From positions 2,728,001 to 2,792,000 of the forward strand of contig NZ_AP014936.1 in NCBI RefSeq assembly GCF_002355415.1: DNA of 64,000 bases, written 5' to 3'. Shown here piece by piece: positions 21,517 through 64,000 of this stretch. The number at the start of each line of letters is the position of its first letter. The stretch's first letter is position 1. Below the pieces are notes generated by a model. It did no database searches. It was given only the letters and a program-made list of their open reading frames with translations, and was not told where the DNA came from. A program made the position numbers and the translations under genes. Origin of the DNA: Sulfurifustis variabilis. GTDB lineage: Bacteria; Pseudomonadota; Gammaproteobacteria; Acidiferrobacterales; Sulfurifustaceae.

Positions 21517-22737
21517 ATGCGTGCGTTGTTCAGCGGCCGCCGGGCGGCCGCCATCATACTAGTAAGTCACTTTGCCATTGCCCTTGACGCCCCTGCCGCC
21601 GAGCTGACGCTCGCGCGCGCGGAGACACTCGCGCTCGAACGCGCGCCGTCGCTCGCGCGGCTGCAGAGCAACGTGGCGGCGGCATCGGAGCGCGTCGCCT
21701 ATGCCGGGCAACTGCCCGACCCGGCGCTCACGCTCGGCGCGATCAACGTCCCCACCGACAGCCTGAGCCTCACCGAAGACGACATGACGATGGTCGGTAT
21801 CGGGCTGCGTCAGGCGTTCCCGCCCGGCGATGCCCGGGCGCAACGGACGCGCGGCGCCTCGGCCGGCGTCGAGCGCGAGGCCGCGCGGCTCGAGGCCGGG
21901 CGCCGCCGGCTGCTGCGCGAGGTGCGCGCCGCCTGGCTCGAGGTGTACGCGGCCGAGACCTCGCTCCGGCTCGTCGACGAGCTGAGGCGGCTTGCGCGCC
22001 GCGACCTCGAATCGGCGGAGGGGCGTTATCGCGCTGCCCAGGACGCGCAACGCGCCGTGCTCCGCGCCCGGTCCGCGCTCGCCCGCGTGAACGAACGTGA
22101 GCCGATGTTCCGCGCGCAGGCGAAACGCGCCCGCGCCGTGCTCGCCCGCTGGCTCGGCGACGCCGCCGACGAGCCGGTTCCGGCCGCGCTGCCACCGCTC
22201 GGCGTCGGTACACCGGGCTTCGATCCCGACAACCATCCCGAGATGCGCATGGCCGTCGCCGAGATCGAGGCCATGCGCTCGGAGGCGGGCATGGCGCGCG
22301 CCGAGTACCGGCCGGGCTACATGGTCGACGTCATGTACGGCGTGCGGCAGGACCGGCCGGACATGATCACGGCACAGGTGAGCCTCGATCTCCCGATCTT
22401 CCGGGCGAAGCGCCAGGACCCGCGCCTCTCCGAGCGCGTGCAGCTCGAACGCGCGGCGGAGCTCGAGGCCGAGGACAAGCGCCGGGAGCTTCGAGCCATG
22501 CACGCCGCGGTGCGGGCCGAGCACGAGGAGCACGGCGAGCGCCTGCGGATCTTCGAGAACGAGCTGCTGCCGGCGCTCAAGCGCGAGGCGAGCGTCACGG
22601 CCGCGGGCTTCGCACGCGAGCAGGCGGAGCTGCGCGACGCACGCATGCGCGAGCTCGATGCGCGTCTCGAGCTCGTGCGTCTCAGGGTAGACCACGCCAG
22701 GACGCAGGCCGAACTGCTGTATCTCACCGGAGAATGA
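21517..22737 (+). CDS. TolC-family outer-membrane efflux protein (CusC/CzcC type)
   Basis: This 406-residue protein has a signal peptide of about 28 residues and the long alpha-helical repeats of TolC-type channels (ETLALERAPSLARLQS, ARRDLESAEGRY, ELRDARMRELDARLELVRLRVDHARTQAEL). GAAGGAGAGG precedes the ATG. Its stop overlaps the start of the adaptor gene by 4 bases. It would form the outer-membrane exit duct of the metal efflux pump encoded next. Confidence 0.85.
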   Translation: MRALFSGRRAAAIILVSHFAIALDAPAAELTLARAETLALERAPSLARLQSNVAAASERVAYAGQLPDPALTLGAINVPTDSLSLTEDDMTMVGIGLRQAFPPGDARAQRTRGASAGVEREAARLEAGRRRLLREVRAAWLEVYAAETSLRLVDELRRLARRDLESAEGRYRAAQDAQRAVLRARSALARVNEREPMFRAQAKRARAVLARWLGDAADEPVPAALPPLGVGTPGFDPDNHPEMRMAVAEIEAMRSEAGMARAEYRPGYMVDVMYGVRQDRPDMITAQVSLDLPIFRAKRQDPRLSERVQLERAAELEAEDKRRELRAMHAAVRAEHEEHGERLRIFENELLPALKREASVTAAGFAREQAELRDARMRELDARLELVRLRVDHARTQAELLYLTGE

Positions 22738-23666
22738 GCATGAACGCGAAAACGACCGCACTGATGCTGGCCGCCGCCCTGGTCGGCGCTTTGCTCGGTA
22801 TCACCGGCTGGACCTATACGAATGACGCCGGCAACGGCGTAGCTCGCGCGACGACGGCTGCCGCGAGCGCCGGGCGCAAGGTGCTTTACTGGCACGACCC
22901 GATGGTGCCCGGCCAGCGGTTCGACAAGCCCGGCAGATCGCCCTTCATGGACATGGACCTGGTGCCCGTCTACGCCGACGACGCGCCGGCCGGGGACACG
23001 GCGATCGTCACCGTGCGGCCCGAGGTCGTGAACACGCTCGGCGTGCGCACGGCCCGCGCGGCGCGCAGCAGCGCGCCGCGGCGCCTCGAGACCGACGGCT
23101 ACGTGTTTCGCGACGAGCGCGGGTTCGGCGTACTCGTCGACATTTTCGATCGCGATGCCGGTTGGGTGCGCCGGGGCCTCGCGGCCGAGATCCGCATTCC
23201 GGAGCTCGGTGACCGGAATCTCAAGGGAACCGTCAGCTGGGTCTCGCCGGACGTGGAGTTCGGCGCGCGCTCTCTCAAGGCGCGAGTTCGCCTGACCTCG
23301 CCGGCGGCCGGGCTTCGCGCGAACACCTACGCCCAGGTCGCGGTGCTCGGCCCGCGTCCCGCGCAGGCACGGCTGCTCGTGCCGCGCGAAGCGCTGATCC
23401 GGACCGGCACGCGCACGAGCGTGGTGCTCGCGCTGGACGCCGGCCGCTTCAAGCCGGTCGACGTCGTCGTCGGGCCGGAGATCGGCGAGCACGTCGAGAT
23501 CGTCGACGGCCTCGCGGACGGCGATCGCGTGGTGACGTCGGGGCAATTCCTCCTCGACTCGGAGGCGAGCATCCGCGCGAGCTTCGCCCGGATGGAGTCG
23601 GCGGAACCGTCGGCGGCCGCCGACGAGCCCGCACGCACGGATCACTCCGGTCACGCGGGACGCTGA
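22734..23666 (+). CDS. cusB: RND periplasmic adaptor (CusB-like) with heavy-metal-binding domain
   Basis: This 310-residue membrane-fusion protein has an N-terminal anchor or signal (8-28), then the YHMDP-like metal-binding module YWHDPMVPGQRFDKPGRSPF with MDMDLVPVY, then beta-barrel and hairpin parts. It is shorter than typical CusB (about 400), mostly because the coiled-coil hairpin is reduced. The Met-rich module indicates copper or silver. It is translationally coupled to the channel gene. Confidence 0.85.
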   Translation: MSMNAKTTALMLAAALVGALLGITGWTYTNDAGNGVARATTAAASAGRKVLYWHDPMVPGQRFDKPGRSPFMDMDLVPVYADDAPAGDTAIVTVRPEVVNTLGVRTARAARSSAPRRLETDGYVFRDERGFGVLVDIFDRDAGWVRRGLAAEIRIPELGDRNLKGTVSWVSPDVEFGARSLKARVRLTSPAAGLRANTYAQVAVLGPRPAQARLLVPREALIRTGTRTSVVLALDAGRFKPVDVVVGPEIGEHVEIVDGLADGDRVVTSGQFLLDSEASIRASFARMESAEPSAAADEPARTDHSGHAGR

Positions 23667-23667
23667 G

Positions 23668-26600
23668 ATGATTGCGCACATCATCGGCTGGTCGGTCCGC
23701 AACCGCTTTCTCGTCCTGCTCCTTACCGCCCTGTTCATAGGCTGGGGCATCCTCGCGCTCGCGCGCACGCCGCTCGACGCGATCCCCGATCTCTCCGACG
23801 TGCAGGTCATCATCAAGACGAGCTACCCCGGTCAGGCGCCGCAGGTGGTCGAGGACCAGGTGACCTACCCGCTCACGACGGCGATGCTCTCGGTGCCGCG
23901 GGCCGTCACGGTTCGCGGCTTCTCCATGTTCGGCGACTCGTTCGTGTACGTGATCTTCAAGGACGGCACGGACCTCTACTGGGCGCGCTCTCGCGTGCTC
24001 GAGTACCTGAGTCAGGTCGTCCCGCGCCTGCCGCGGAACGCCCGGCCGGCGCTCGGCCCGGACGCGACCGGCGTCGGCTGGGTGTACGAGTACGCGCTGG
24101 TCGACCGGACCGGGCGGCACGACCTCGCGCAGCTCCGGGCCATCCAGGACTGGTTCCTGAAGTACGAGCTGCGCACGGTGCCCGGCGTCGCGGAAGTCGC
24201 CTCGGTCGGCGGGATGGTAAAGCAGTACCAGGTCGTCCTCGATCCCGCGCGCCTGCGCGCCCACCGCCTCACCCTCATGGACGTACGCCGCGCGATCGAG
24301 CAGGCGAACCGGGAGACGGGCGGCTCGGTGGTCGAGATGGCCGAAGCCGAGTACATGGTCCGCGCCCGCGGCTACCTGCAGGGCGAGAGCGACCTGCGGG
24401 CGATTCCCCTCGGGATCGCGAGCGACGGCACGCCGATCCGGCTCGCGCACGTCGCGGAGATCCGGCTCGGGCCCGAGATGCGTCGGGGCATCGCCGAGCT
24501 CGACGGCGAGGGCGAGGTCGCCGGCGGCATCATCGTCATGCGCCACGGCGAGAACGCGCTCAGCACCATCCGCGCCGTGAGGGAGAAACTCGAGGCGCTC
24601 GAGGACAGCCTGCCGGAAGGGGTGGAGCTCGTGCCGACCTACGATCGCTCGCAGCTCATCCACCGGGCGGTCGACAATCTCACCGGCACGCTGATCGAGG
24701 AGTTCGTCATCGTCGCGCTGGTGTGCGCCGCGTTCCTGTTCCACCTGCGTTCGGCGCTGGTCGCCATCCTCACCCTGCCCATCGGCGTGCTCATGGCCTT
24801 CATCGTGATGCAACGACAGGGCATCAACGCCAACATCATGTCGCTCGGCGGCATTGCGATCGCGATCGGGGCGATGGTGGACGCGGCGATCGTGATGATA
24901 GAAAACGTGCACAAGCACATCGAGCGCGCCGGCGGCGTCATCGCCGACCGCTGGGCGCTCGTCCGGACGGCCGCGCAGGAGCTGGGCGCGCCGCTCTTCT
25001 ACTCGCTGCTCGTCATCACGCTCAGCTTCCTGCCGGTGTTCGCGCTCGAGGCACAGGAGGGGCGGCTCTTCTCGCCGCTCGCCTACACCAAGACCTATGC
25101 CATGGCGGCCGCCGCCGGGCTCTCGATCACGCTCGTGCCGGTGCTGATGGGTTACTTCGTCCGCGGGCGCATCCGCCCGGAGCACGAGAACCCGATCAAC
25201 CGCGCACTGCTCGCCGCCTACCGGCCGTTTCTCGGCTGGGTGCTGCGCTGGCCCAAGGCGGTCCTCGTGCTCGCTGCCGCGCTCGTGCTCGCCGGCGTCT
25301 ACCCGGCGACGAGGCTCGGGGCCGAATTCATGCCGGACATGGACGAAGGCGACCTGCTCTACATGCCGACGACGCTGCCGGGGCTCTCGCCCGGCAAGGC
25401 GGTGCAGGTACTGCAGCAGACCGACCGTCTTCTGAAGACGCTCCCCGAGGTCGAGACGGTCTTCGGCAAGGCGGGCCGCGCCGAGACCGCGACCGACCCG
25501 GCGCCGCTCTCGATGTTCGAGACGACGATCCAGTTGAAACCGCGCTCGGAGTGGAGGGAGGGCATGACCACGGAGAAGCTGATCGCGGAGATGAACGCAC
25601 TCGTGAAGATGCCGGGACTCTCCAACGTCTTTGTGATGCCGATCAAGACCCGCATCGACATGCTCACGACCGGCATCCGCACGCCCGTCGGCATCAAGGT
25701 GACGGGACCGTCGCTCGCCACGCTCGAAGACGTCGGCCGTCAGATCGAGCAGGCGATCCGGGCAGTCCCGGGTACCACTTCGGTCTACGCCGAGCGGGTG
25801 ACCGGCGCACGCTACGTCGACGTGCGTGTCGACCGGAACCGCGCGGCGCGCTTCGGCCTGAACGTCTCGGACGTGCAGGATGCGGTGGAAACGGCCATTG
25901 GCGGGATGAACGTGACCGAGACGATCGAGGGTCGCGAGCGCTACCCGGTGAACCTGCGCTACCCGCCCGACGCGCGCGACTCGCTCGAGCGGCTGCGCCG
26001 GCTTCCGATCGTCGTGGGCAACGGCTTGCCGATCGCGCTCGGGGAGGTGGCCGATGTGCGCATCGTCGACGGCCCCGACATGATCCGCAGCGAGAACGCG
26101 CGCCTCTCCGGCTGGACCTACGTCGACTTCGCCGGGCGGGACATCGCCGCCTACATCGCCGACGCGAAGCGCGCGGTCGCCGGGCAGGTCCGGCTGCCGC
26201 CCGGCTACGCGCTCGCGTGGTCCGGCCAGTACGAGTACCTCGAGCGTGCGGTCGGGCGCCTCAAGGTGGTGATTCCGTTCACCGTGGCGATCATCCTGCT
26301 CCTGCTCTACCTCAACTTCCGAAACGGCATGGAGGTGCTCATCATCGTCGCGACGCTGCCGCTCGCGCTCGTCGGCGGCTTCTGGCTGCTCTGGGCGCTC
26401 GGCTACCACCTCTCGGTCGCGGTCGCCGTGGGCTTCATCGCGCTCGGCGGCGTGGCGGTCGAGATCGGCGTCGTCATGCTCGCCTACCTCGACCAGGCGA
26501 TGAAACGGCGGCGCGAAGACCGCACCGCGCGCGGCGAAGACATGACGGGAGAGGACGTGCACGAGGCGATCGTCGAAGGCGCGCTGCTGCGCGTGCGGCC

Positions 26601-26847
26601 GGTGACCATGACCAAGATCGCGATCATCGCCGCGCTGCTCCCGATCCTCTGGAGCTCGGGCACCGGCTCCGAGGCGATGCAGCGGATCGCCGCGCCGATG
26701 GTGGGCGGGATGGTAAGCGTGGCGCTACTGACGCTCGCCGTCATTCCTGCGGCGTACCTGCTCTGGCAGCGGTGGCGGGTGGCACGGCAGACGCAGGCCG
26801 CGAGGGCGAGCAGGCCGCCGACTTCCGTCTTGCCGGCGCGCGACTGA
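23668..26847 (+). CDS. cusA: Heavy-metal RND efflux pump, CusA type
   Basis: This 1059-residue inner-membrane pump has twelve hydrophobic segments and two large periplasmic loops. The helix-4 motif GAMVDAAIVMIENVHKHIE matches the Cu/Ag (HME4, CusA) branch. The periplasmic part is relatively rich in Met, as in the CusA methionine relay. It lies 1 base after the adaptor gene, completing a CBA tripartite efflux system that expels Cu(I)/Ag(I) from the periplasm. Confidence 0.9.
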   Translation: MIAHIIGWSVRNRFLVLLLTALFIGWGILALARTPLDAIPDLSDVQVIIKTSYPGQAPQVVEDQVTYPLTTAMLSVPRAVTVRGFSMFGDSFVYVIFKDGTDLYWARSRVLEYLSQVVPRLPRNARPALGPDATGVGWVYEYALVDRTGRHDLAQLRAIQDWFLKYELRTVPGVAEVASVGGMVKQYQVVLDPARLRAHRLTLMDVRRAIEQANRETGGSVVEMAEAEYMVRARGYLQGESDLRAIPLGIASDGTPIRLAHVAEIRLGPEMRRGIAELDGEGEVAGGIIVMRHGENALSTIRAVREKLEALEDSLPEGVELVPTYDRSQLIHRAVDNLTGTLIEEFVIVALVCAAFLFHLRSALVAILTLPIGVLMAFIVMQRQGINANIMSLGGIAIAIGAMVDAAIVMIENVHKHIERAGGVIADRWALVRTAAQELGAPLFYSLLVITLSFLPVFALEAQEGRLFSPLAYTKTYAMAAAAGLSITLVPVLMGYFVRGRIRPEHENPINRALLAAYRPFLGWVLRWPKAVLVLAAALVLAGVYPATRLGAEFMPDMDEGDLLYMPTTLPGLSPGKAVQVLQQTDRLLKTLPEVETVFGKAGRAETATDPAPLSMFETTIQLKPRSEWREGMTTEKLIAEMNALVKMPGLSNVFVMPIKTRIDMLTTGIRTPVGIKVTGPSLATLEDVGRQIEQAIRAVPGTTSVYAERVTGARYVDVRVDRNRAARFGLNVSDVQDAVETAIGGMNVTETIEGRERYPVNLRYPPDARDSLERLRRLPIVVGNGLPIALGEVADVRIVDGPDMIRSENARLSGWTYVDFAGRDIAAYIADAKRAVAGQVRLPPGYALAWSGQYEYLERAVGRLKVVIPFTVAIILLLLYLNFRNGMEVLIIVATLPLALVGGFWLLWALGYHLSVAVAVGFIALGGVAVEIGVVMLAYLDQAMKRRREDRTARGEDMTGEDVHEAIVEGALLRVRPVTMTKIAIIAALLPILWSSGTGSEAMQRIAAPMVGGMVSVALLTLAVIPAAYLLWQRWRVARQTQAARASRPPTSVLPARD

Positions 26848-26894
26848 CCGGAGACCGAGATGGCGAGACACGGCGATCACCGGGATCGTCGCGC

Positions 26895-26929
26895 AAAAAA
26901 AAGCTCCGCGTCCCGAGGGAGCGCGGAGC
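26895..26929 (-). terminator. Rho-independent terminator of the GGGGQP peptide gene
   Basis: Read on the minus strand: an 8-bp stem GCTCCGCG (26922-26929) with CGCGGAGC (26903-26910), an inner loop that can pair further, then eight T (26895-26902). It lies 72 bases beyond the stop of the peptide gene and shows that a short minus-strand transcript ends here. Confidence 0.85.
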
Positions 26930-27000
26930 ACACGGTTTCGAAAGCGACCTGAGTGGGGCTCGGCCGTACGGGCCGATACCGTTCGTACGAAATAGTTATG

Positions 27001-27168
27001 TCAGAGGACGGGCGGTTGTCCGCCGCCGCCCGTGGGCTTGGGCTGTCCGCCGCCGCCCATTCGGGGGGGCTGACCTCCGCCGCCGCGGATGAGGTCGTTC
27101 GGCTGTCCGCCGCCGCCGATCGAGTTTGGCGGCTGCCCGCCACCGCCGATTGCGTGCTTGCTTCTCAT
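27001..27168 (-). CDS. GGGGQP-repeat peptide, candidate RiPP precursor or small structural peptide
   Basis: This 55-residue peptide starts MRSKHAI, followed by five exact GGGGQP units (residues 8-13, 18-23, 29-34, 38-43, 47-52) separated by variable 3-5-residue spacers and ending PVL. GGAGGT lies 7 bases before the ATG, and a strong terminator follows, so the unit has its own expression signals. All base differences among the five repeats are at third codon positions and silent, so selection acts on the protein in this frame. No signal peptide, Cys, Ser/Thr-rich core or known leader is seen. The divergent neighbour is an asparagine-synthetase-like enzyme. I know no described family of this kind; function is unknown. 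Confidence 0.8.
   Translation of the reverse strand: MRSKHAIGGGGQPPNSIGGGGQPNDLIRGGGGQPPRMGGGGQPKPTGGGGQPPVL
27013..27147 (-). repeat. Five tandem GGGGQP-coding units
   Basis: Units lie at 27130-27147, 27100-27117, 27067-27084, 27040-27057 and 27013-27030, with spacer lengths of 12, 15, 9 and 9 bases. The units differ from each other only at wobble positions of the minus-strand frame (GGT/GGC/GGA/GGG, CAG/CAA, CCG/CCC). Confidence 0.9.
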
Positions 27169-27405
27169 CGTTGTTACCTCCATGTCGATTATTGTTCCGG
27201 TCGCCCGGAAGAGAGGCGCGACTTCCTTGCGCCGCCCCGCCGGGCGACGATTAGTGTCGACCGATCGCGCGAAGCGGGCAAGCGGCGCTTTGCAAGACCC
27301 TACAAGCCCCGTTTGAGCGGCGACGATCGCGTGGTCGAGAATGAAGCGCCGGTCGCGCTTCCTGAGCGCGCTCCGCACGCCAAACCCGCGCCAAGACCAA
27401 TAACG

Positions 27406-28980
27406 ATGACGGGTACCGAACGGTGGCAGTCTCTCGTCTCCCCGGAAACGCCGCGGGCATGCGCGCACGCGCATTCGAGCGAGCCGGGCTTCCCCTACGT
27501 CGCGCAGTTTCTGCTGGGTCCGCGCTTCGTGGAGCATCTGGCGCAGTGGCGAAGGAAGCGCGTCGCCGGCCGATTCAGCCTCACGCTGCACCCGTCGCTC
27601 GCGTGCACGCAGGTCGCGGATGCCGGCCGCGAACTGACGTTGATCGGACATATCCTCGACCCGCGGCGCCCGGAAGCGGGTAACGCCGAAATCCTGCAAG
27701 CCCTCCTCTCCCGCTTTCGCACCCGAGAGGACCTCGTCGATGCGACGACCGGGTACGGCGGTCGCTGGCTTCTGATCGCCGCCCGAGGACAGGAGTCGTT
27801 CCTCTTCCACGATGCGCTCGGGCTGCGCCAGGTGTTCTACACCGATCCGGCGAGCACCGGCGAGCTCTGGGCCGTGTCGCAGCCGGGCATCGCCGCCGAG
27901 GCGTTGGCGCTGGCCCCGGACGAGCAGGCCCTCGATTACATGGACACCGAGACCTACCGTCGCACCAACGAATACAGATGGCCGGGAACGGCTTCGACGT
28001 TCACCGGGCTCAGGCACCTGCCGCCCAACCACCGGCTCGACCTCGCGACAGGCGCGAGCCACCGCTACTGGCCGTCGAAGCCGCTCGATACGTTCACGCT
28101 CGACGCGGCGGTCGAGCGCCTGCTCGCGCTCGTCCCCGGGCTGGTTCGCGCGGCGACCGCGCGCTTCGACGTCGCCCTGTCACTGACCGCCGGCGTCGAC
28201 AGCCGCTTCGTCCTCGCCGCCGCCCGCGACCTGGTCGATCGCCTGCGCTTCGTCACCGTGCGGCAGGGCCGACTGCCGGACGGCCATCCGGACGTCGAGA
28301 TCCCCGCCCGCCTGCTCGCGCGGCTCGGGCTGCCGCACGACGTGATCTCCGCCACGTCGACCATGTCGCCGGAGTTCAGCCTTCGGTTCAAGCGCAACGT
28401 ATACCGTGCCCACGATCACTACGGGCACGACGCGGAAGCGATTCTGGACTACTACGGCCGCACGCGCGCCGTACTCACGGGCAGCGGCGCCGAGGTCGGC
28501 CGCCGTCCTTTCCGCACGAAGCTCCCCCACGCCGACCGTGTCCGGCTGACGCCGGAGACGCTCGCCTGGCTCGAGTACGGTTCCACCCATCCGTTCCTGG
28601 TGAAACACTTCGCGGAGTGGCTGGACGGCGCCCGCGGACAGGAGCACGTGAAGCTGCTCGACCTGTTCGAATGGGAGCAGGACTACGGCAACTGGCTGGC
28701 CCAGACCCAGCTCGAGTTCGACGTCGCCTGGCGCGAGATCGTCACTCCTTATAATTGTCGCGCGGTGCTCGCGACGCTGCTCGGCACCCCCGAGCGCTAC
28801 CGCGGGCCGGACGCCCTGCTCTGGCGCGAGTTCATCCGCCGCGCCTGGCCGGAGCTCTTGGCCGAGCCGATCAATCCGCACAAGCGAACCGGTCGCTTCG
28901 GCCGGACCGTGGCCGATGCGAAGGCCATCGCCCATTACTGGTCCTTCCGGCGACGGTGCGCGCGGCCCGCGGAGGCGTAG
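27406..28980 (+). CDS. Asparagine-synthetase-like adenylating enzyme
   Basis: This protein of about 524 residues has a degenerate N-terminal amidotransferase-like half, with no Cys2 nucleophile, then an ATP-pyrophosphatase domain with the variant P-loop LTAGVDSR at 260-267 instead of SGGxDS. The end carries EPINPHK. An N-terminal-nucleophile-free asparagine-synthetase fold is typical of enzymes that adenylate a carboxylate for amide or lactam formation (lasso cyclases, beta-lactam synthetase). Start at 27406 is the best ATG, though no strong ribosome site is seen. A homologue is at 62871-64000. It is divergent from the GGGGQP peptide gene, its possible substrate; that link is inferred. Confidence 0.75.
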   Translation: MTGTERWQSLVSPETPRACAHAHSSEPGFPYVAQFLLGPRFVEHLAQWRRKRVAGRFSLTLHPSLACTQVADAGRELTLIGHILDPRRPEAGNAEILQALLSRFRTREDLVDATTGYGGRWLLIAARGQESFLFHDALGLRQVFYTDPASTGELWAVSQPGIAAEALALAPDEQALDYMDTETYRRTNEYRWPGTASTFTGLRHLPPNHRLDLATGASHRYWPSKPLDTFTLDAAVERLLALVPGLVRAATARFDVALSLTAGVDSRFVLAAARDLVDRLRFVTVRQGRLPDGHPDVEIPARLLARLGLPHDVISATSTMSPEFSLRFKRNVYRAHDHYGHDAEAILDYYGRTRAVLTGSGAEVGRRPFRTKLPHADRVRLTPETLAWLEYGSTHPFLVKHFAEWLDGARGQEHVKLLDLFEWEQDYGNWLAQTQLEFDVAWREIVTPYNCRAVLATLLGTPERYRGPDALLWREFIRRAWPELLAEPINPHKRTGRFGRTVADAKAIAHYWSFRRRCARPAEA

Positions 28981-31465: not shown

Positions 31466-33604
31466 TCACCTCCGTTTTCGCGTAGCCGGATGATTTCGCT
31501 GGCGATGCGCCGCGTGGACCGGCTCGGGCTCGCGGCGCACGCCGGCCGCGCCCTTCGCCGTGCCGTGCCGCTCGAGCAGCTGCGCGTTGATCGCGACGAT
31601 CACGGTGCTGGCCGACATCAGCACCGCGCCGATCGCCGGGGTGAGCAGCACGCCCCACGCCGCCGCGACGCCGGCCGCGAGAGGGATCGCGATCGTGTTG
31701 TAACCCGTCGCCCAGAGCAGGTTCTGCACCATCTTGCGGTAGGTCGCGCGAGAGAGATCGAGGATCGCGACGACGTCACGGGGATCGCTCCGCACGAGCA
31801 CGACGTCGGCCGACTCGATCGCGACGTCCGTGCCGGCGCCGACCGCGATGCCGAGATCGGACTCGACCAGCGCCGGCGCGTCGTTCACCCCGTCGCCGAC
31901 CATCGCCACCGTGAGCCCCCGCGCTTTCACTTCCCGGATCTTGGCGGCCTTCTGCTCCGGGAGCACCTCGGCGAAGTAATCGTCGAGCCCGAGCTCCCGT
32001 GCCACCGTACGGGCTACGGCGCTCGCGTCGCCGGTCAGCATCATCGGACGAATGTCCATGCGCTTGAGCGCCTCGACGGCCGCGCGGGACTCGGGGCGAA
32101 CGAGGTCGGCGAGCGCGATCGCCGCGGCAAGCCGTCCATCGACGATGAGGTACACGACCGTTTTGCCCTGCTCCTCGATTTGCCGCACGCGCGCGTCGTC
32201 GGTCGCGAGTCCCTGCTCGCGTGCGTAACCCGGGCTCACGACCTTGATCTCCCGGCCCTCGACCCGCGCCTGCGCCCCGCGGCCGGTGATGTTGCGAAAG
32301 CCCGAGACCTCGGGCGGAGCCAGCCCGCGCTCGCTCGCCGCCTGGACGATGCCCCGCGCAATCGGGTGTTCCGATTGGCTCTCGAGTGCGGCAGCGAGCC
32401 GCAGGCACTCGTCGGCCGGCAGATCGCCCAGGGCCACGGTATCGCTCACGCCGAAGCGTCCCTGGGTGAGCGTGCCGGTCTTGTCGAAGACGACCGCTTG
32501 CAGCTCGCGCGCACGTTCGAACGCGGCGCGGTCGCGGACCAGGAGACCGCGCCGGGCCGAGAGGCTGGTGCTCACGGCGACCACGAGCGGCACGGCGAGC
32601 CCGAGTGCGTGCGGGCAGGCGATCACCATGACGGTCACCGCGCGCTCCATCGCGAAGGCGAAATCGGGCCGGATGGCGAGCCACGCGATCAGGGTCGCCG
32701 CGCCCCCACCGAGCGCGACGAGCACGAGCACGACCGCCGCCCGGTTCGCGAGGTCCTGCGTGCGCGAGCGCGAGGCCTGCGCCGCGCGCACCATCTCCAT
32801 CACCTGGGCGAGGTACGTCTCGCCGCCGGTCTTTTTCACCTCGATCGTGATCGCGCCTTCGCCGTTGACCGAGCCGCCGATCACGCCTGCGCCTTCCGCG
32901 CGCTCCACCGGTTTCGATTCCCCCGTGAGCATCGACTCGTCGAGGCTGGTCCGCCCCTTGACGATGTCGCCGTCGGTCGGCACGCGCTCGCCCGGCCGGA
33001 TCAGTACGCGATCGCCGGTGGTGAGCGCCGAGACCGGCACGTCCTCGGTCGAACCGTCGGTGCGCAGGCGATGCGCCTCCGACGGCAGCAGACGCACGAG
33101 CGCCTCGAGCGCACGGGATGCACCCATCACCGAACGCATCTCGATCCAGTGCCCGAGCAGCATGATGTCGATCAGCGTTGCGAGCTCCCAGTAGAAGCCC
33201 ATGCCCGGAAGCCCGAAGATCACGGCCGTGGAGTACGCGTACGCCGCGGTGATGGCGACGGCGATCAACGTCATCATGCCGGGCAGGCGACGGCCCAGTT
33301 CCTCGACGATGCCGCGCAGGAAGGGCCAGCCGCCGTAGAAGTAGACGACGCTCGAGAGCCCGAAGAGGACCAGGTCCTCGCCGGGAAAACGAATTGGCGC
33401 CTTGAACCCGAAAAGCTCCCAGAAGCCGTGCGAGAGCAGCAGGATCGGTACGGTGAGGACCAGCGAGACCCAGAAACGCCGGCGATACTCGGCGATCATC
33501 CCCGCGTGGTCGTGGCCGGTCGCATGGCTCGCGGCCGTGCTCGCCGCACGGGTCTCGGGTGCGGCTCCGTGCGGCGGCGCGTGTTCGTGGTGTCTGTCCT
33601 CCAT
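31466..33604 (-). CDS. copB: Copper-exporting P-type ATPase, CopB (CPH) type
   Basis: This 712-residue P1B ATPase has a His-rich N-terminal tail (residues 4-36, HHEHAPPH and HATGHDH) in place of a CxxC domain, the membrane motif CPH (330-332), phosphorylation motif DKTGTLT (374-380), TGES and GDGVNDAP. CPH defines the P1B-3 CopB group, which moves Cu(II)/Cu(I) or Ag outward. The ATG at 33604 begins the His-rich tail. A His- and Pro-rich extension at the C-terminus is also present. Confidence 0.88.
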   Translation of the reverse strand: MEDRHHEHAPPHGAAPETRAASTAASHATGHDHAGMIAEYRRRFWVSLVLTVPILLLSHGFWELFGFKAPIRFPGEDLVLFGLSSVVYFYGGWPFLRGIVEELGRRLPGMMTLIAVAITAAYAYSTAVIFGLPGMGFYWELATLIDIMLLGHWIEMRSVMGASRALEALVRLLPSEAHRLRTDGSTEDVPVSALTTGDRVLIRPGERVPTDGDIVKGRTSLDESMLTGESKPVERAEGAGVIGGSVNGEGAITIEVKKTGGETYLAQVMEMVRAAQASRSRTQDLANRAAVVLVLVALGGGAATLIAWLAIRPDFAFAMERAVTVMVIACPHALGLAVPLVVAVSTSLSARRGLLVRDRAAFERARELQAVVFDKTGTLTQGRFGVSDTVALGDLPADECLRLAAALESQSEHPIARGIVQAASERGLAPPEVSGFRNITGRGAQARVEGREIKVVSPGYAREQGLATDDARVRQIEEQGKTVVYLIVDGRLAAAIALADLVRPESRAAVEALKRMDIRPMMLTGDASAVARTVARELGLDDYFAEVLPEQKAAKIREVKARGLTVAMVGDGVNDAPALVESDLGIAVGAGTDVAIESADVVLVRSDPRDVVAILDLSRATYRKMVQNLLWATGYNTIAIPLAAGVAAAWGVLLTPAIGAVLMSASTVIVAINAQLLERHGTAKGAAGVRREPEPVHAAHRQRNHPATRKRR

Positions 33605-33709
33605 GTGGGCCTCAGTGTACCGAACCCCTCTACGCGCTCCGCCCACGCTTTCCGTAGTGAATCGGCCGAGGGCAGACGAGTGGTTTCCCAAGGCCCGCCC
33701 GTCGGCCGG

Positions 33710-38312: not shown

Positions 38313-39110
38313 TTACTGGGAGCCGGACGGCGAACCGCCACCGGGAGGAGTTCCGCGGTACATCATTCCCGGACCCATGCCGCGCCCCGGGCCGTAGCCC
38401 CGCGGTCCCATGCCCCCTCGCGCCATGCCGCGACGCCACTGGGTCAGCTGTTCGCGCTGCTCCTTGGTCAGCACGTCGAGCATCTGGTTCTGGGCCTGCA
38501 CGTTGCCCTCGATGATCTCCTGCTGGAGCTTCGCGATGTTGCCGTAGGCCTGGCCGATCTGTTTTGCGTCCGGCTTTTCGGCCCCGTAGAGCTCGCTCAG
38601 GCGTGCCTGCTCCTCGAGAATCTTCCCTTGGGTGTTCCAGTGGCGCTTGCGCACGTCCTCCTGGATCTTGGCGATCCGCTGGCGTTGCTCGTCCGAGAGA
38701 TCGAGCATGGCGAACGGACCCGCGCCCGTCCCGGGGCCCCACCCCATCCCCATGCCGCCCATCATGCCGGGGCCCATGCCCATTCCGGGACTCATGCCCC
38801 ACCCCCCTTGGCCCATCATTCCGGGCCCCATCATGCCCGGACCCATCATGCCCATGCCCGGACCCATGCCCCAGCCGCCCTGGCCCATCATTCCGGGTCC
38901 CATCATTCCGGGCCCCATCATTCCCGGGCCCATCCCCCATCCCGGGCCGTAACCGTAGCCGTACCCCGGCGCGTATTCGCCCGTCACGGGCGCCGTCCCC
39001 TCCTCGCTCATCATGCCCGCCTGCGGGAAAGCGACGGCAGGCGCAAGCAGCAGCGCGAGCGCGGCCGCGCGAGGAATCGGTCGAACTTGAAAAGACGTTT
39101 TCCAGGTCAT
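38313..39110 (-). CDS. Met/Gly-rich periplasmic protein with a CpxP/Spy-like helical domain
   Basis: This 265-residue protein has a signal peptide and then about 80 residues of repeated GPGMM/GMGPG units (about 50-125) with a very high Met content. A helical part follows, LSDEQRQRIAKIQEDVRKRHWNTQG, then LTKEQREQLTQWRRGMA, resembling LTXXQ repeats of CpxP/Spy chaperones, and then a second Met/Gly-rich tail. Met clusters of this type bind Cu(I). The likely job is periplasmic copper buffering and envelope protection. Tandem repeats make length change by slippage likely. Confidence 0.7.
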   Translation of the reverse strand: MTWKTSFQVRPIPRAAALALLLAPAVAFPQAGMMSEEGTAPVTGEYAPGYGYGYGPGWGMGPGMMGPGMMGPGMMGQGGWGMGPGMGMMGPGMMGPGMMGQGGWGMSPGMGMGPGMMGGMGMGWGPGTGAGPFAMLDLSDEQRQRIAKIQEDVRKRHWNTQGKILEEQARLSELYGAEKPDAKQIGQAYGNIAKLQQEIIEGNVQAQNQMLDVLTKEQREQLTQWRRGMARGGMGPRGYGPGRGMGPGMMYRGTPPGGGSPSGSQ

Positions 39111-62870: not shown

Positions 62871-64000
62871 CTACGATCCTCCGGCGTCCGCAGACGGCTT
62901 GCGCGCGCCGCTCGCGTAGAGCCGGCACGCGGTGCGCCACCGCGCCAGGCAGCGGCGCAGACCCGGAAGGCGCTCCACCTTGTGCGGATTGATCGGCTCG
63001 CAGAGGACCTCCGGCCACAACTTCTCGATGATGCGCCGGAAGAGCGTGTAACCGGGCGCCCGCCGGTGGCGGTCGTGCACGGCGAGCAGGTTGGCGAGCA
63101 CGTCACGGCAGTTGTAGGCGGCGATGATGTCGCGCCACGCCGTGTCGAACTCGAGCTGTGTCATCGCCAGCCAGTTGCCGTGCTCCTGCTCCCACTCGTA
63201 GAGCTCGATGGCCGACGTGCCGTGGAGCGGGCCCAGACCGTTCAGCCAGGCACGATTGGCCTCGATGACGAAGTCGTTGCCGCCGTATCCCTTCACGTAA
63301 GCGAGGTACCCGGGGCTCAACGGTTGCCGCGGCCGTATGAATTCCAGGTACGGGCTGCGGCCGATTTCGGCGCCGCTCCCCGTGACCGCCACCCGGCGCA
63401 GCGCGAAGTGCGCGTAGATGGCCTCCGCGTCCGCGCCGTAGTGGTCGTGCGCGAGGAAGACGTGCCGCTTGAAGAAGCTGCTGAACTCGGCGGACATGGA
63501 CGCGGCGGCGCGGATGGTTTCGTGCTCGAGCCCGAGCCGCGCGAGCAGTCGCGGCGGGATCGAGAGGTCGGCGCTGTCGTCCGCCATCCGCCCCTGGCGC
63601 ACCGTGAAGTAGACCGCGCGATGCCTGATGTCGCGCGAGGCGGCCAGCACGAGGCGGCTGTCGAGACCGGCGGTGACGGGAATCGCGAGCTCGAAGCGCT
63701 CCGCCGCCGCCAGAAGCAGACCGCGCAGCGTGGCCGCGACCCGCTCCGCCCCTTCCTCGACGCCGAGCCGCGGCAACGGCCGCTTCGGCCAGTAACGCTC
63801 CGCGCGGCCGCTCTCGAGATCCAGACAGTGGTTGGGCAGCAGATGGCGGACCTCGCGGTACGGCGTCGTATCCCCGGGCCACCAGAACTCCTGCTGCCGG
63901 CGGAACGCGTACGAGTCCATGAATCGCGCGGCCGCCTCGGAAACGCGAAAGTCGAGCAGGTCCGCGAGCAGCTTCGGCTGCGAGGCCGCCCAGCACGCGC
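62871..64000 (-). CDS. Asparagine-synthetase-like enzyme, 3' part (runs off the window)
   Basis: The frame is open to the right edge, so only the C-terminal part (at least 376 residues) is seen. Its variant P-loop is VTAGLDSR, and FRRQQEFWWPG, HLLPNHCLDL and CEPINPHKVERL align with the homologue at 27406-28980. The two share the TAG(V/L)DSR replacement of SGGxDS. Its partner genes lie outside the window. Confidence 0.78.
   Translation of the reverse strand, partial: ACWAASQPKLLADLLDFRVSEAAARFMDSYAFRRQQEFWWPGDTTPYREVRHLLPNHCLDLESGRAERYWPKRPLPRLGVEEGAERVAATLRGLLLAAAERFELAIPVTAGLDSRLVLAASRDIRHRAVYFTVRQGRMADDSADLSIPPRLLARLGLEHETIRAAASMSAEFSSFFKRHVFLAHDHYGADAEAIYAHFALRRVAVTGSGAEIGRSPYLEFIRPRQPLSPGYLAYVKGYGGNDFVIEANRAWLNGLGPLHGTSAIELYEWEQEHGNWLAMTQLEFDTAWRDIIAAYNCRDVLANLLAVHDRHRRAPGYTLFRRIIEKLWPEVLCEPINPHKVERLPGLRRCLARWRTACRLYASGARKPSADAGGS

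Follow-up and report, generated by a model that had tools for sequence, protein, structure and literature searches.

A GGGGQ-repeat peptide gene and a divergent asparagine-synthetase-like enzyme gene form a candidate two-gene module in Sulfurifustis variabilis and two related bacteria

In Sulfurifustis variabilis, a minus-strand gene for a short peptide built of GGGGQP units lies beside a divergent gene for an asparagine-synthetase-like enzyme, and the pair recurs in two further genera. The peptide gene is very likely real and its product likely functions together with the enzyme. We assign a probability of about one half to a RiPP-like module of two genes, with the enzyme modifying a short precursor that has several units and almost no leader. 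A sequence-only reading of this DNA had proposed a new type of ribosomally made peptide or small protein; the conserved enzyme gene, which that reading lacked, turns the proposal into a concrete two-gene hypothesis. The window, that is, the whole 64,000-nt stretch that was analysed, contains these features of the candidate module:

26895..26929, minus strand: predicted intrinsic terminator, a 27-nt hairpin followed by eight U (fold and T-run)
27001..27168, minus strand: peptide gene, 55 aa, five GGGGQP units, stop codon at 27001-27003 (translation and homologues in two further genomes)
27176..27181, minus strand: GGAGGT ribosome-binding site, 7 nt before the ATG (read from sequence)
27169..27405, no strand: region between the divergent peptide and enzyme genes, 237 bp
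27406..28980, plus strand: asparagine-synthetase-like enzyme, 524 aa, without an N-terminal Cys and with the pyrophosphate-loop motif TAGVDS

Translation of 27001-27168 gives MRSKHAIGGGGQPPNSIGGGGQPNDLIRGGGGQPPRMGGGGQPKPTGGGGQPPVL, in agreement with the sequence-only reading, which had described a minus-strand peptide of 55 residues with five exact GGGGQP units; a comparison of these units likewise upheld its claim that all base differences among them are silent. Only 2 of 20,000 shuffles of the peptide's residues reached five or more copies of the hexapeptide, so the five copies are not a composition effect. Across the entire 64-kb window, 27001-27168 on the minus strand is the only frame with at least two GGGGQ. 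The window peptide had no match in Pfam at E 0.1, and the three peptides described here had none in NCBIfam except one chance match (E 9.1). No description of such a GGGGQP peptide was found in the literature, judging by titles and abstract openings, and the literature match for IGGGGQ concerned algal hydrogenases only, as judged from its listing entry.

Two homologues were reached through a peptide search of 96 related genomes and an enzyme scan of genome contigs, the latter yielding a single locus (G014:C51). They belong to other genera of the same family, here called G008 and G014. The G008 peptide, MIHAKGCSIGGGGQPSVGGGGQPTVGGGGQPPTVQGGGGQPPT, has 43 residues and four GGGGQP; the G014 peptide, MRNIFIGGGGQTDPRIGGGGQTDTI, has 25 residues and two GGGGQT. 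Each gene has its own ribosome site and terminator, and the three peptides have one layout, in which 6-9 residues precede two to five GGGGQ(P/T) units, with short, variable linkers between them. The sequence-only reading had named, among its checks, conservation of the frame in relatives, freedom from frameshifts and a count of silent versus amino-acid-changing differences over orthologues. Both homologues keep the frame intact together with GGGGQ, and among the 11 units of the three genomes all 151 of 151 pairwise base differences fall at codon position 3, with none at positions 1 or 2. By this measure the frame and motif are under protein-level constraint. The homologues and the lack of Pfam matches, or of NCBIfam matches beyond chance, also support the suggestion of a new peptide type.

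A chance ORF in a G+C-rich simple repeat might be suspected in a window of 68% G+C, but the homologue stretches, at 59% and 54% G+C, retain the protein motif with different codons, which makes this explanation hardly credible. The opposite-strand frame, which reads CPPPP, is interrupted by a stop in S. variabilis. The plus-strand frame of the enzyme stays open through the peptide region in the window and closes before the peptide is reached in G008 and G014.

The GGAGGT that had been noted ahead of the ATG is present at 27176-27181. A second in-frame ATG, five codons upstream, overlaps the ribosome site in the window locus and in G014; at the equivalent place in G008 an ATG opens a frame that ends after only four codons, which makes the downstream ATG the probable start. 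The terminator placed at 26895 by the sequence-only reading was recovered as the hairpin and eight U listed above. The 56-nt stretch that was folded gave -26.1 kcal/mol, matched by 1 of 200 shuffles; a simple consensus scan of 26800-27500 returned 0 terminators, so the call rests on fold and T-run. A hairpin and U-run stand behind all three peptide genes (-26.1, -23.9 and -28.3 kcal/mol; z -3.6, -7.8 and -5.5).

The intergenic distance between peptide and enzyme is 224-297 bp across the three genomes. The three upstream regions have no 7-mer in common and two common 6-mers, ATGGAG, which lies at the ribosome site (-14/-15) in all three loci, and CGGTCG, which occurs at unlike distances. A common promoter or upstream RNA element was rejected, as the consensus scan of 26800-27500 gave 0 sigma-70-like promoters and no 7-mer is common. 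Position-3-only differences, no common upstream 7-mer and the terminators together indicate selection on the peptide rather than on DNA or RNA letters. These data also bear on whether the transcript itself acts as an RNA through its GGA or GGCGG repeats, for instance by acting as a sponge for a GGA-binding protein. In 7 of the 11 units GGA is the codon of the fourth Gly, and the transcript ends in a predicted terminator, as such a role would suggest. Yet the unit changes are all silent in the sole frame with an ATG and ribosome site, and third positions, GGA included, vary freely. Rfam offers no family either: its single match (E 0.49, limit 0.5) lies elsewhere, was taken as chance and was rejected. 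An RNA role is therefore very unlikely.

The peptide gene is divergent from the same enzyme gene in 3/3 genomes, and the peptide was found in all 3 searched genomes that hold this enzyme group; the paired enzymes are 60-65% identical. We took 19.5, 18.0 and 13.5 kb around the three loci and compared every ORF of 80 aa or longer between them (E 1e-5). The cross-matches were confined to the enzyme and ORFs overlapping it. The window neighbours include an RND pump (PF00873) with a CusB/HlyD-type protein, a PadR regulator and a chromate transporter; G008 has a HutF-type amidohydrolase and a redoxin; G014 has a membrane transport protein and a true asparagine synthetase (PF00733). Since no other gene is common to the three loci, peptide and enzyme genes keep together in unlike surroundings, and adjacency in three related bacteria argues that they probably work together. 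The G014 asparagine synthetase gene (L024:3501-5414, minus strand; 637 aa, N-terminal MCGI, PF00733 1.6e-53) lies directly downstream of the peptide gene's terminator.

A peptide that acts on its own, as a secreted, cell-surface or signalling molecule with the enzyme as merely a stable neighbour, would fit the divergent arrangement and the peptide gene's own ribosome site and terminator, and no direct functional link between the two products is known. We nevertheless consider this doubtful, because three genera retain the pair although its surroundings in each are otherwise unrelated, and the peptide was never seen without the enzyme. Nine of 67 sequences examined have at least two GGGGQ per open frame, and all nine are copies of the three loci; the loci read contain no other such frame. 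Some peptide match was obtained in 44/96 relatives at E ≤1 and in 20/369 genomes of the class at E ≤0.03, the own genome included in both, and in none of the plasmids or phages searched. The G014 match was placed through locus L024, and other matches without an extracted locus lie outside the set of loci read. Absence of the peptide elsewhere is thus a statement about the sampled genomes, plasmids and phages.

The window enzyme had no Pfam match at E 0.1, PF00733 included, and 0/13 enzyme members matched PF00733 at E 0.01, while a true asparagine synthetase run against the same library as a control gave 1.6e-53. One member matched GATase_7 (E 6e-4). TIGR01536, the NCBIfam model for glutamine-hydrolysing asparagine synthetase, gave 19.6 bits with the window enzyme, short of the curated cut-off of 267.1. 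Profile comparison with three true asparagine synthetases yielded E 2e-10 over 238 columns; with a single one the match was weak (probability 8.6%, E 0.004). A sequence search of solved structures gave four matches to unlike proteins (E 0.016 to 0.33), which were taken as chance and set aside.

An AlphaFold2 model of the window enzyme (mean pLDDT 87.1) gave structural matches with Z 18.3-21.6 over 366-412 residues. Beta-lactam synthetase (Z 21.6, 366 residues, 3.9 Å), carbapenam synthetase (Z 21.6, 392 residues, 4.1 Å) and asparagine synthetase B (Z 21.5, 371 residues, 3.7 Å) are tied as the best matches of the model. The predicted fold is that of these synthetases, and the activity is putative. 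Beta-lactam and carbapenam synthetases form amides without using glutamine and act on small molecules; alike in predicted structure, they differ from the window enzyme in sequence, with 12-19% identity. Beta-lactam synthetase has a known catalytic lysine; the ends of the structural match ranges differ by a residue or two between rows, which is too coarse to place it.

The matched range of E. coli asparagine synthetase B (1ct9) begins at model residue 33, an Ala at the place of the Cys in glutamine-hydrolysing enzymes, and none of the 13 members (among them L045, which has no clear start) carries Cys at position 2, so that hydrolysis of glutamine is unlikely. The pyrophosphate loop SGGxDS is present as the variant T(A/S)GxDS, aligned in 13/13 members. 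At the next motif, GADELFGGY of the true synthetase is replaced by GSGAEVGR in the three paired enzymes, the chemistry of which may therefore differ.

The enzyme profile gave 12 matches in 6/57 genomes of the order, all six in one family; 3/369 genomes of the class sample, the own genome included, and, at a stricter limit, 1/398 of the phylum sample (the own genome) had a match, and viral contigs had none. Three matches exceed 1,000 bits and are those with the peptide; the rest score 630 bits and below, a gap that is partly built in because the profile was made from those three enzymes. In the stretches read, 0/11 other copies (nine from the order and two distant ones from the class) have a repeat peptide; one of the eleven, a partial match with masked letters in G003 (L048), was left out of the alignment (A3) and tree. 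In the tree, a branch supported at 99/100 sets the three paired enzymes apart; the branches leading to two distant rows are long. Of 500 label shuffles, 11 gave equal clustering, a test limited by the few rows. At 26 positions the three paired enzymes share an invariant residue that the 8 closest other copies lack, and 14 of the 26 fall between residues 341 and 427.

At least three other copies (the second in this genome, one in G012 and the third in G008) have glycosyltransferases and hexapeptide transferases as neighbours, and two distant relatives on plasmids lie among polysaccharide genes. An ancestral role in polysaccharide or glycan modification may be read from these neighbours, and the peptide-paired group may, from the same gene contexts, be a recruitment from it. 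A further copy in S. variabilis (G000:C1:2790976-2792406; window 62976-64000, minus strand, running past the window) is 43% identical to the window enzyme, begins ~34 kb away and has no adjoining repeat peptide; another lies at 1554946-1556400 of the genome.

The main rival is a small protein that stays unmodified and binds the enzyme as a multivalent regulator or activator. Its units would be repeated binding motifs, and the enzyme would act on a different substrate, for instance a glycan. Variation in unit number (5, 4 and 2) and in linkers suits multivalent binding, as do the copies and plasmid relatives among polysaccharide genes the notion of another substrate. On the other side, the enzyme is the only gene common to the three paired loci, and the other copies that were read do without the peptide. 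On balance we regard such a binding protein as rather unlikely.

Known systems show how far the RiPP-like module would resemble described chemistry. In lasso peptides, an Asp or Glu at core position 7-9 closes a ring with the N-terminal Gly. Counted from the first Gly, an acid occurs at 7-9 in 1/5 window units (GGGGQPND, position 8), 0/4 units of G008 and 2/2 of G014 (GGGGQTD, position 7); a lasso-like ring is thus conceivable in G014 and is no common feature. As in lasso systems (precursor A, protease B, cyclase C), a small precursor adjoins an asparagine-synthetase-like enzyme, and PMC13060819 counts lasso cyclases among this enzyme family. Unlike them, the present peptide has nearly no leader, several units and no acidic ring residue that is conserved; the 12 neighbours scanned with Pfam included no B1/B2 leader-binding or protease gene, and the enzyme lacks a PF00733 match. 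The predicted fold agrees with that of a lasso cyclase; none of the 13 members matched PF00733.

PesC of the nitrilobacillin pathway is likewise an asparagine-synthetase-like enzyme that acts on a ribosomal peptide, and it can adenylate an amide; it is described as using glutamine or ammonia and needing a hydroxylated Asp before the C-terminal Asn, with a Glu and a Tyr of the substrate pocket that matter for activity (PMC13060819). By our reading of the spacing, GADELFGGY may be the site of this Glu and Tyr. In contrast to PesC as described there, the paired enzymes lack the glutaminase Cys and an obvious counterpart of the Tyr, and no oxidative partner gene is common to the three loci. Judged by these comparisons, the names lasso peptide and asparagine synthetase become less likely, and the chance that the enzyme forms an amide-type bond in the peptide is not reduced. 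Microviridins are made by ATP-grasp enzymes and have a leader and other core chemistry. Their precursors carry several cores each (PMC5934393), as the GGGGQ peptide would.

Several features favour the RiPP-like module. Enzymes of the asparagine-synthetase-like kind activate a carboxylate by adenylation, and PesC can do so with an amide as well; a nitrogen then attacks the activated group. Members of the family (lasso cyclases, TsrC, ScdTA and PesC) modify ribosomal peptides (PMC13060819). The silent-only differences, ribosome site and homologues point to the ribosomal precursor gene that a broad definition of RiPPs calls for, with translation presumed. Because the unit repeats with variable linkers, each unit is probably a site of action or recognition, and this repetition favours the RiPP-like module. 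We infer that the neighbouring enzyme acts on the peptide and modifies it. The evidence comes from three genomes, and several points stand against the module: no RiPP protease or recognition domain occurs in the 12 neighbours scanned with Pfam (3 + 9 ORFs), there is hardly any leader, the three loci have no common neighbour besides the enzyme, and at least three other enzyme copies sit among glycosyltransferases without a peptide. The missing counterpart of the PesC Tyr, the weak profile match to a single true asparagine synthetase and the 11/500 equally clustered label shuffles also count against it.

In the module as proposed, the minus-strand gene would yield a very short precursor with two to five GGGGQ(P/T) units, and the divergent gene an ATP-dependent asparagine-synthetase-like enzyme with an inactive glutaminase half. 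The enzyme would adenylate a group of the peptide and create a new bond inside each GGGGQ unit or at its end. As there is almost no leader, it would recognise the unit itself; as the glutaminase half would be inactive, either the substrate or free ammonia would supply the nitrogen. The constant GGGGQ has no acid, thiol, hydroxyl or amine, and Gln and the backbone amides remain besides the C-terminus. Our guess for the activated group is the C-terminal carboxylate, the Gln side-chain amide or a Gly backbone amide. Host proteases and exporters might finish the product, a guess that assumes transport and cleavage. If the enzyme modifies the peptide, the pair would be a minimal one-enzyme peptide-modifying system and would point to new chemistry of the asparagine-synthetase fold, because GGGGQ lacks the side chains that usually react. 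Both genes are short and easy to co-express.

A more specific version, a new and almost leaderless RiPP class, appears improbable. Here a glutaminase-dead enzyme would adenylate the Gln carboxamide, the one side chain of the constant GGGGQ that could react, or a Gly backbone amide, giving an amidine ring, nitrile or cross-link repeated two to five times per precursor. Mining based on PF00733 does not see the enzyme; having no match to that family, it would fall outside the about 300 uncharacterised candidates left by a survey that started from PF00733 (PMC13060819).

The surroundings of the window module hold further features. The RND efflux set at 21517-26847 comprises the PF00873 pump and the CusB/HlyD-type protein, the latter with a heavy metal binding domain. 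The gene at 31466-33691 encodes what we take, from its translation, to be a metal P-type ATPase. Together they form a metal-resistance neighbourhood that flanks the module and is not common to the other two loci. An ATP synthase epsilon-type gene (PF02823; 30780-31193, plus strand) directly follows the chromate transporter gene. A 265-aa ORF at 38313-39110 on the minus strand carries tandem GPGMM/GQGGWGMGPGM repeats in its first half, with tandem repeats of 15 and 72 bp at the DNA level, and is presumably a Met-rich periplasmic protein related to metal or stress.
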